From Spirogloea muscicola (lineage: Eukaryota; Streptophyta; Zygnematophyceae; Spirogloeales; Spirogloeaceae): a DNA stretch of 53,867 nt. Under the pieces are notes generated by a model, which saw only the letters and a list, made by a program, of their open reading frames with translations, was not told the origin of the DNA and did not search any database. Location of the stretch: contig WELB01000021.1 in NCBI GenBank assembly GCA_009602725.1, positions 253,380 to 307,246 of the forward strand, read 5' to 3'. This document shows, piece after piece, positions 17,826-20,800 of the stretch (position 1 is the first letter of the stretch; each line of letters begins with the position of its first letter). The translations under genes were made by a program, and so were the position numbers.

Positions 17826-20800
17826 TCAGAGGACAGGCGCAGGCGAACGATGAAAATGGATGTGCTTCCACTCCCACTCGCCACCCTCATTCTGCCTCCG
17901 CTCCCACACCCTCGTCTCGTTGGACGCACTCACGTAGCCCTGCAGCGCCCGACCCTTCTTCTGGTGCAGCCGAGTATACATGACCAGCCCAATATCGCCA
18001 ATCAAAATGGTCTTCACGCCAGCCATTGTAGACAATGGCGGGGGGCCCCTCTCTGCGTCTCCAGCTACGGCCTTGTCCACTGCTGTGCAGTCGAAGTAAA
18101 ACTGGTGAAAGGGTATACCTTCCACAAGATGACCTGTACAGGGTGGACAATGAGTTAAATATAGCAACCATTAGCTCTTCTCCAATTATGGAACCTGAAG
18201 GAGATGCTGGGATTGCCTGTCTCCTGTGTACAACAAAGGCATATGAATGGGCGGCGTACAATCACATGGCGTGTAAAGGCTCACCTTGTGCCTCCGGCTC
18301 GAACGCCGTCAGTCCTGGATCGCACAATCGACAGTAGGTGGCAAAATCGCCTGTGTCAATGGAGGTCAAAAGCTCCCTCGTTGCCGACAGCAGATCCTCC
18401 TATGCAGTGTGTGAAGCGACCACGAAAGGTTCTACTGCCCTCAGCTTGCTGGCAGGCTGGAGGTGTAAGATTTGGCTGAATACTGGCTAATTTGCAAATT
18501 TTTGTGCAGGGCTTTTGAATGACAAGGAGGCAAAGTCACAGTCTACAAAGTAGCAGCCAGGAACAGAGGTTGAGGCAACAGAGCGACTTCCAGCAGGTTG
18601 ATGCTGACCTGGAGGAAGGGCTTGAACAGGGGCACTATGGATTTGTACACTTCGTCCACCGTCCTGGTTGCATCAATCTGATCATCTCAACAACTGTCAG
18701 GCAAGCTTGTAAAGCCTGGACAGCTTGGACTGTCATGCAGCTTGCATGCTTGTCTCGGCTTCTGCAACATCATGTCACTGAACGTATGCTTTATCATGGA
18801 TACACTCTCTGGCACCTTGTGTTTGTTCCTTCTCTCATTTATTTATCAGCTTGTCCTTCTCATGCGGTGACCTGAAGGCTGTACATAAGCAAATCAAACC
18901 TCTAATCTCCACCTGACATGGCATCAATAAGACACTTATTGTGAAGAAAGCAGGTTGTAGCAATGGTGCTGAGAAGAGCAGCGGCATACCTTGCGTACTC
19001 GACTTCGAGTGTCGTAGTATTGAATCACAGGCATACTTTGCTCCACAAAGACATGAAACCGTTTGCGTATTGTCTCAGCATTGTCGTCAATCCTACCCTG
19101 TCAGAGCAGGCAACTTCAAGCTTTCATTCATAGCTTGTCTTTCCATCGAAGTTGGTGAGAGATGGGGAGTGAGCAAGCTCATGTTGTTGGGGCATACATG
19201 CGCTGCTATTCAACTTGAGTTGCTTCTAAGCTGCTCTTGAGGGTCAGGCATTTGCGTCATCTATACCTCATTCCTGTTCAGCAGCCGCGTCTCCATAACC
19301 TGTTCTGGGCAGTCGAAGAAGAGAATGAACTCTGGATCTATCCCCGTCTGCCAACAACTAGCCACTTTCAGTTGCAAACCATGCGAATGCATAGCATGAC
19401 CATCAGCTGCTCAAGCACTTGAAGGAATAAGTCCTGGACAAGATGGTACTGCTTATTTTTCTGTCAGATGATGAAGATGCAATTACAAGAAACTCAAATG
19501 TCTCCCTGAGAAATAGCAGCTGGGCCTACACTAAAGTCCGCTAATCAATGTAAGGGGTAGTTGCACTTGAGCTTCTAGTATATATTAGCTTCTGGTCATA
19601 GTGAGCATACTAAGGAAGAGCAACACCAAACGTACATTGCGTTCGAAGATAGTTCGGTTCTCATCGTTCCGTGGAAAGCCATCAATGAGAAACTTGTCCT
19701 TCCCACTCTCCTTCATCGCCTTGCTAAGGAGACCTACAGTGACTTCTGCAGGAACAATCTTGCCCTCCTTGATCATTGTCTGAATCATAGTTCTGCACCA
19801 ACGACACAGACCAAAGCGAGTAGTCATTAACAAGCATGATCACGGGAGAAGGACAGGGTATACTTTGTTGTCCTCTTCATCTCTGATGATGTGTACATGC
19901 CAAGGCTGCCTCTCAATGCAGACAAGGCTGCCAAAACATATCCAGGACAGCACTTGATTGCTGATTCTTCCTCTAAGCTTGTCAGAGTAGAAAGCTCCGA
20001 GCTCGGCTTCAGGGACGAACCCAAACTCAGATCCAGACTTTATCTCAGCCCTAAGCAAGTCGCCAGCACTCAAGTGCACAAAGCCAAAGTCCTGTACTAT
20101 CCTTGCACATTGCGTTCCTTTTCCACTGCCAGGACCTCCTGTGAGAAGACAGTCAAGGGCCATGCAAAAGGAGGATATGAGATGGAGCTATCCATATGAA
20201 AATGCACACATTCAGCAAGGGCAGGAGAGAAGCGATCGTAGCTGCCAAAATCTCAGGTGTGAGGGAGGATGCTGCAAGTCAAAGACTATCAGTTCTCCAG
20301 AGGTAGGCAGCACATACCAAGAACAAACACAACACGAGGGTTTGTTGCAGTATTCAATGACGGGAGCTTCTGGCCAGCTGCTCCTGCTGTGTCCTGTGCA
20401 CACCTTTCCTTGGTCAGAAAATAGACGATTCTTCCAGAAGGAAACGGTGGGTGTGAAAGGGCAGCCCCGGAAAGTAGGTCTCGGACCAGGTTTAAGGGGA
20501 AGCCTGATTAGAGCTGTGTGCTTCGTGACATGAGCAATTAGACTTGCTTGAACAAGTCATGGTCTGCTTCAGTGTGATGCGCATTCACAAGAAGAAGGTA
20601 CGAAATGTCTACATGACGTGAGTAGCAGAGTTAATTGCTCAACCCAGGTACCTTGGCAGTGGAGGCGTCAGTGGTAAGGGTGGCGGCGTCAGCAACAGGC
20701 GCACTCAAGCACACAGCAAAAGCTCCAGCAGCGAAGCCCCACGCGCTCCAGCCGGGCTGAATCGAGAGTCATTCTCAGTCGGACATCAGGAACCAAAGTG

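Follow-up and report, generated by a model that had tools for sequence, protein, structure and literature searches.

Does one gene of Spirogloea muscicola encode a UMP/CMP kinase that carries its own assembly domain, and what would such a protein do? The question is raised by a 53,867-nucleotide stretch of genomic DNA (the window, to which all coordinates refer unless a contig or locus is named). The CaMKII hub is best known for scaffolding the memory kinase. A preliminary description, made from the letters of the window, had placed a UMP/CMP kinase and a CaMKII-type hub in one gene. We confirmed this observation: family models, splice sites in two copies, purifying selection on both domains and the lack of a usable start for the hub all agree with it. 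Together they support a single gene that encodes both domains.

Gene structure of the fusion

The minus-strand segment 20138-17826 holds seven exons, five for the kinase (20138-18609) and two for the hub (Table 1). The preliminary description had assigned seven exons to the kinase, but seven is the total with the hub exons included. Its exact boundaries for the hub exons, its FKPFLQ end of the kinase and its 209-base GT-AG intron at a phase 0 join were all reproduced in the reassembled sequence. Read on the minus strand with exact boundaries, the frame is open across the seven exons and 6/6 junctions are GT-AG. Three predicted upstream exons complete the P-loop kinase and add a leader. The full predicted model would be spliced from 10 exons into 1212 nt encoding 403 aa.

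Table 1. Exons of the fusion gene and the intron at the kinase-hub join, in window coordinates. Copy 2 is the second copy of the gene on contig C6.
Feature	Coordinates	Strand	Length (nt)	Content and support
Exon 1 (predicted)	21343..21417	-		MAGRRGLQELLRRLRPAAGSAAGAA, Arg-rich amphipathic leader; ATG in ACCATGG context, donor GTGAGC
Exon 2 (predicted)	20652..20756	-		Hydrophobic segment ...STAK; AG/GT sites retained in copy 2
Exon 3 (predicted)	20318..20393	-		Kinase domain start, ...NPRVVFVLG; AG/GT sites retained in copy 2
Exon 4	20021..20138	-	118	P-loop and NMP-binding region; Pfam match, alignment
Exon 5	19636..19792	-	157	...GFPRNDEN; Pfam match, alignment
Exon 6	19267..19347	-	81	...LLNRNE; alignment
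Exon 7	18990..19097	-	108	LID region; alignment
Exon 8	18609..18677	-	69	C-terminal kinase helix, ends FKPFLQ at 18609
Intron 8	18400..18608	-	209	GT-AG, phase 0, kinase-hub join; length and splice sites the same in copy 2
Exon 9	18285..18399	-	115	Hub helix 1 onward; CaMKII_AD match
Exon 10	17826..18133	-	308 (with TGA)	Remainder of hub and stop TGA; CaMKII_AD match

Exon 1 is the least certain exon of the model: an N-run (21449-21878) closely precedes it, and in copy 2 a further N-run covers its start. Its donor is retained in copy 2, and the ATG is visible in one copy only. Between the copies, exon 2 has a dN/dS of 0.21 over 35 codons. The acceptor of exon 3 has a weak pyrimidine tract (0.26). 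The leader has 5 R/K and 1 D/E in its first 25 residues, and by eye the hydrophobic stretch ends in an A-x-A-like motif.

Several other genes were seen in the window. A PRA1-family exon (about 21881-22393, plus strand, 9.2e-34) lies across the N-gap from the fusion gene and is oriented away from it. A SNAP gene also flanks the fusion gene (two exon pieces, once joined, match the SNAP domain at 3.6e-11), and a single N at 17106 falls in its apparent start codon (NTG GCG GAC CAG, minus strand). The exon at 42545-43102 (plus strand) presumably resembles plastid GAPDH. The GAPDH-like exons of that region were rejected as a taxon marker, as the last exon has no C-terminal extension and is not diagnostic.

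Kinase domain

The kinase half matches Pfam ADK at 1.5e-46 in the 317-aa translation of the seven exons and at 4.1e-48 in the 403-aa model. Among NCBIfam models, TIGR01359 (UMP-CMP kinase) scores 259.0 bits against a cut-off of 207.6. None of the 21 further families on the list (dTMP kinase and 20 adenylate kinase models) reaches its own cut-off. In the 403-aa model ADK, AAA_17 and CaMKII_AD are above the Pfam cut-off, AAA_18 and DUF4440 are below it, and no protein kinase domain was found with Pfam.

The nearest solved kinase in a PDB sequence search is the Dictyostelium UMP/CMP kinase 1qf9 (2.5e-62). The whole kinase domain is shared with the eukaryotic UMP/CMP kinases of TIGR01359, at 59% identity to 1qf9 and 55% to yeast 1uky. 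The matched chains of 1qf9 and 1uky, in contrast, are 194 and 203 aa long and leave no room for a hub. We take the catalytic Lys/Arg set of the Dictyostelium enzyme to be K19, R42, R93, R131, R137 and R148. This set is invariant in our four-sequence alignment (A2), at positions 16, 39, 90, 126, 130 and 141.

We then searched the window's own assembly (153 Mb, 471 contigs) for other enzymes of this type. At E 0.1, TIGR01359 gave 13 matches, 8 of which are exons of two fusion genes. The five others are weak (4.6e-4 to 0.0042) and lie in five other loci, each of which also matches ADK. Single exons fell below the TIGR01359 cut-off in every case, as expected for an exon-wise search. In this exon-wise search of an unfinished assembly, no other or stand-alone eukaryotic-type UMP/CMP kinase was found. 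The bacterial-type UMP kinase model (TIGR02075) has matches at two other loci, where no single exon reaches its cut-off. We assume that PUMPKIN is a UMP kinase of this bacterial, TIGR02075-like type. It is named as a plant plastid UMP kinase in a passage of PMC10652772.

Hub domain

The hub half matches CaMKII_AD (PF08332) over profile positions 3-128 of 128, with 89.2 bits (3.2e-25) in the 317-aa translation and 88.2 bits (6.2e-25) in the 403-aa model, against a cut-off of 22.1. In the PDB it matches 19 distinct sequences at 1e-3. The best is 6of9 (1.1e-26), followed by mammalian-type CaMKII delta, beta and alpha chains. Against the aligned solved hubs, identity is 44% to 6of9, 42% to delta and 42% to beta. 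The 6of9 entry is labelled only "CaMKII hub", and we take it to be the Chlamydomonas hub. Green algae (Chlamydomonas and relatives) have orphan hub proteins, reportedly described by McSpadden in 2019. The loop that precedes the TMA motif is longer in the fusion hub and the green-algal hubs alike; those proteins, however, are described without an enzyme domain, whereas the fusion hub has a kinase. Bacterial and algal relatives of the hub are described as orphan proteins in a passage of PMC8985225. A profile search of the genome found no other CaMKII hub.

We also scanned prokaryotes with one genome per species (84,980 species). The scan matched 189 stretches. Relatives are encoded in 125 of them, of which the best 80 were kept. 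Among these 80, 78 are titled planctomycete and two only "bacterium". Their stand-alone hubs have a median identity of 45% to the fusion hub and a maximum of 52%. The hub ORF is 150 aa or shorter in 61/80 and longer in 19. Viral homologues were sought in three scans, and 0/2, 0/32 and 0/227 pattern matches were confirmed. No donor or sister of the fusion hub is claimed: an 85-row tree put it next to one planctomycete row (91/55), at the end of a long branch (1.7), a placement that we regard as unsupported. We know of no role for the bacterial and algal orphan hubs.

The residues that hold CaMKII hubs together have been mapped by mutation. The lateral contact includes an F394-Q436 bond, with alanine effects in the order F394 > Q436 > I434 > F397, and vertical contact is made by H420, H466 and H468 with T378, T452 and S470; mutation of D393, Y398, H411, T413 or L415 is given there as without effect on assembly (all in passages of PMC11199487). 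In our alignment the fusion hub retains F394, Q436 and F397, and has L at I434 as beta and delta do. Five of the six vertical residues are kept (T378, T452, H466, H468 and S470). The sixth, H420, is I in the fusion hub, R in 6of9 and R or K in 76/80 bacterial hubs.

The pocket is kept as well. Binding of HOCPCA is abolished or nearly so by mutation of H395, R433, R453 or R469, and these four residues are known through the binding of GHB analogues in mammals (PMC12148480). All four are kept in the fusion hub (4/4), while CaMKII beta has C in place of R469. The HFHRS motif and the hub residues listed in the preliminary description are present and align with these four. Together with Y369, they are identical in 80/80 of the best 80 bacterial hubs. 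Conservation as wide as this suggests an ancestral small-anion ligand.

Would the fusion hub close into a ring? Residue conservation is what supports a ring of nucleotide kinases. The lateral residues with the strongest effects are those retained, and F394 and Q436 are also present in 80/80 of the best 80 bacterial hubs. In addition, bacterial and algal orphan homologues are reported to form 16- to 20-mers (PMC8985225). The alternative is that the fusion is real but its hub does not close, so that the kinase is dimerised through the vertical contact or the hub serves mainly to sense a ligand. The conserved pocket would suit such a hub. Elsewhere in the lateral patch, only V389 of five further residues is kept (L385Q, L415A, L438K and P444G; the alignment is loose near 438-444). 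Among 23 crystal structures of hub relatives counted in a passage of PMC9120016, the dimer is the commonest form (n = 11), against seven holoenzymes. Weighing these points against the retained lateral residues, we consider an open hub unlikely, though a serious contender.

One gene or two transcripts

At FKPFLQ the kinase domain is already complete, and its reading frame could continue to a stop in intron 8. It could then be argued that the locus makes two transcripts, one ending within the intron and one expressing the hub from a nested start. The intron of the window copy contains no ATG, in agreement with the preliminary description, which had seen no new start codon between the domains. 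Copy 2 has one ATG in this intron, out of the hub frame, and the first Met of the hub is residue 75. A separate hub gene is therefore judged unlikely. The preliminary description had also excluded a stop between the domains. This holds for the spliced message, but the unspliced intron does contain stops in the hub frame, with TAG immediately 5' of the hub exon.

The sequence at the possible transcript ends gives the same picture. If the kinase read through into intron 8, the C-terminal tails of the two copies would be unlike each other. Five poly(A)-type motifs were sought in intron 8 of both copies and none was found, whereas AATAAA starts 5 nt past the hub stop in the window copy, where copy 2 has AATGAA. 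The splice sites are retained in both copies. Two transcripts thus appear improbable, and we return to a single fused product.

Comparison with iota-type carbonic anhydrases

A hub-like domain may itself be an enzyme, which would make the protein bifunctional. In diatoms the iota-carbonic anhydrase LCIP63 is built from two to four CaMKII-AD-like repeats, and some Chlorophyceae have relatives with two domains (PMC6776030). These proteins and the fusion hub share CaMKII-AD-like domains of the NTF2-like superfamily. However, an (H)HHSS motif at the domain C-terminus is said to mark the carbonic anhydrases, and their diatom forms have repeated domains. At the motif the fusion has HFHRS instead, as CaMKII hubs do, its best PDB sequence matches are CaMKII hubs, and DUF4440 is under its cut-off. 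Carbonic anhydrase identity was rejected on the missing motif, and we give a bifunctional enzyme very little credence.

Second copy and selection

The genome contains four hub matches, all of them exons of two loci, the window gene and C6:289924-290484. Kinase exons matching the window gene surround the hub on C6. The 2313-base stretch with the seven exons has exactly two matches in the genome, itself and C6:288171-290493 at 93% identity, and no third copy of the fusion gene was found there.

Between the two copies, identity is 95.1-99.4% in the seven exons, which align without gaps, and 87.4-96.4% in the six introns that separate them. These introns are GT-AG at 6/6, and splice sites are also retained in the two upstream introns compared. 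The contrast between exons and introns is not uniform: the intron 19266-19098, at 96.4%, is as conserved as some exons. No frameshift or stop was found in the modelled exons of either copy.

By the NG86 method, dN/dS is 0.178 for the kinase (203 codons; 11 synonymous and 7 nonsynonymous differences), 0.146 for the hub (140 codons; 10 synonymous and 5 nonsynonymous differences) and 0.170 for the whole model (378 codons, exon 1 left out). These values indicate that both halves have been under purifying selection since the gene was duplicated, and they speak against a chimeric join, a pseudogene or an appendage left to drift. As a second copy at 93% identity lies on another contig with its splice sites kept, an assembly join is very unlikely as the source of the fusion. 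The assembly is a single draft and has N-gaps close to the 5' end of the gene, yet with the arrangement repeated on two contigs, intact exons in both copies and a dN/dS of about 0.17, a chimera or decaying pseudogene is scarcely credible.

The chlorophyll a/b-binding family has 68 matches in the same genome, which point to a green alga or plant. Several come in twos or threes with near-equal scores on separate contigs (for example C76/C28/C30, C229/C24/C8 and C63/C33/C293), a pattern that looks like the aftermath of genome duplication or triplication. Such a pattern would fit Spirogloea muscicola, for which a genome triplication is mentioned in PMC7994812.

ThyX genes beside planctomycete hubs

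Among the 19 bacterial hub ORFs longer than 150 aa, 18 have no Pfam domain beyond the hub or its superfamily. The exception is a planctomycete ORF (L068:14-1231) that joins ThyX to the hub in frame (Thy1 2.9e-46, CaMKII_AD 2.2e-36). In the wider scan, thyX lies upstream of the hub at 14/80 loci of the best 80 of 125 (L068, L069, L091, L093, L095, L105, L108, L115, L121, L123, L129, L131, L132 and L136, the last one partial).

We examined 60 genomes of the planctomycete family of L068. A CaMKII_AD match was present in 47, at E <= 1e-33 in 40. Flanks were compared for 39 of these 40 stronger matches (L137-L175), leaving out G001, the source of L068, and the weaker matches. The gene for flavin-dependent thymidylate synthase, thyX, lies directly upstream on the same strand in 36/39, its stop falling between 129 nt before and 1 nt after the aligned hub start. 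The counts 36/39 and 14/80 are not independent, as some genomes may coincide. None of the 36 pairs is fused. Because thyX and hub are separate in all 36 relatives with the pair, the L068 fusion probably reflects a lost stop between two neighbouring genes, and it was rejected as a second general enzyme fusion. Other planctomycetes have different hub neighbours. The adjacency may be a matter of lineage synteny, but it connects hubs with pyrimidine-nucleotide enzymes for a second time.

Discussion

The fusion is most likely a UMP/CMP kinase assembled as a ring. At a probability of about 0.65, we favour one nuclear gene for a probably organelle-targeted UMP/CMP kinase whose C-terminal hub would form a ring of about 12-18 subunits, clustering and perhaps regulating the conversion of UMP to UDP and CMP to CDP. 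The hubs would pair into dimers, and the dimers would close into the ring with the kinases displayed around it. Between the C-terminal helix of the kinase and hub helix 1 there are predicted to be hardly any linker residues, if any at all. The kinases would thus be packed tightly around the ring, unlike the CaMKII kinase on its linker.

The fusion and the animal CaMKII holoenzyme both have a C-terminal hub of the same family with an N-terminal catalytic domain, and share most lateral and vertical contact residues and all four pocket residues. The catalytic domain of CaMKII, however, is a protein kinase, whereas that of the fusion is a P-loop nucleoside monophosphate kinase. The fusion is almost free of linker, with no room for a regulatory segment, and Ca2+/calmodulin control is not evident in it.

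Assembly to a high order would keep the two phosphorylation steps concentrated and might also help to regulate them. Clustering might increase activity locally, link domain closure from one neighbour to the next, or serve to store the enzyme. The conserved anion pocket of the hub is a candidate site for control by a metabolite. Enzyme polymerisation is a known mode of regulation in pyrimidine metabolism, as in the CTP synthase filaments treated in a passage of PMC8669480. The Arg-rich leader may direct import into either a mitochondrion or a plastid. If the leader sends all of the protein to an organelle, the cytosol would be without this enzyme, barring an alternative start or a kinase gene missed in the assembly.

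A bolder proposal can be made. The only eukaryotic-type UMP/CMP kinase of the alga would be a giant hub ring in which the anion pocket gates pyrimidine flux, as one case of an older link between hubs and pyrimidine-nucleotide enzymes, of which the conserved planctomycete thyX-hub pair would be another. We regard this proposal as doubtful.

We found no report of a nucleotide kinase-hub fusion among the matches listed in the literature that names the domain, taken by title and the start of the abstract, with subscription papers and database architecture pages outside the search. A hub on a metabolic enzyme, in a genome with no other hub found, would give a handle on what a ring does apart from calcium signalling, be it clustering, cooperativity or ligand sensing. 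The fusion suggests that the CaMKII hub scaffold also serves to assemble a metabolic enzyme, and that assembly into rings is a regulatory module which can be carried over from one protein to another.
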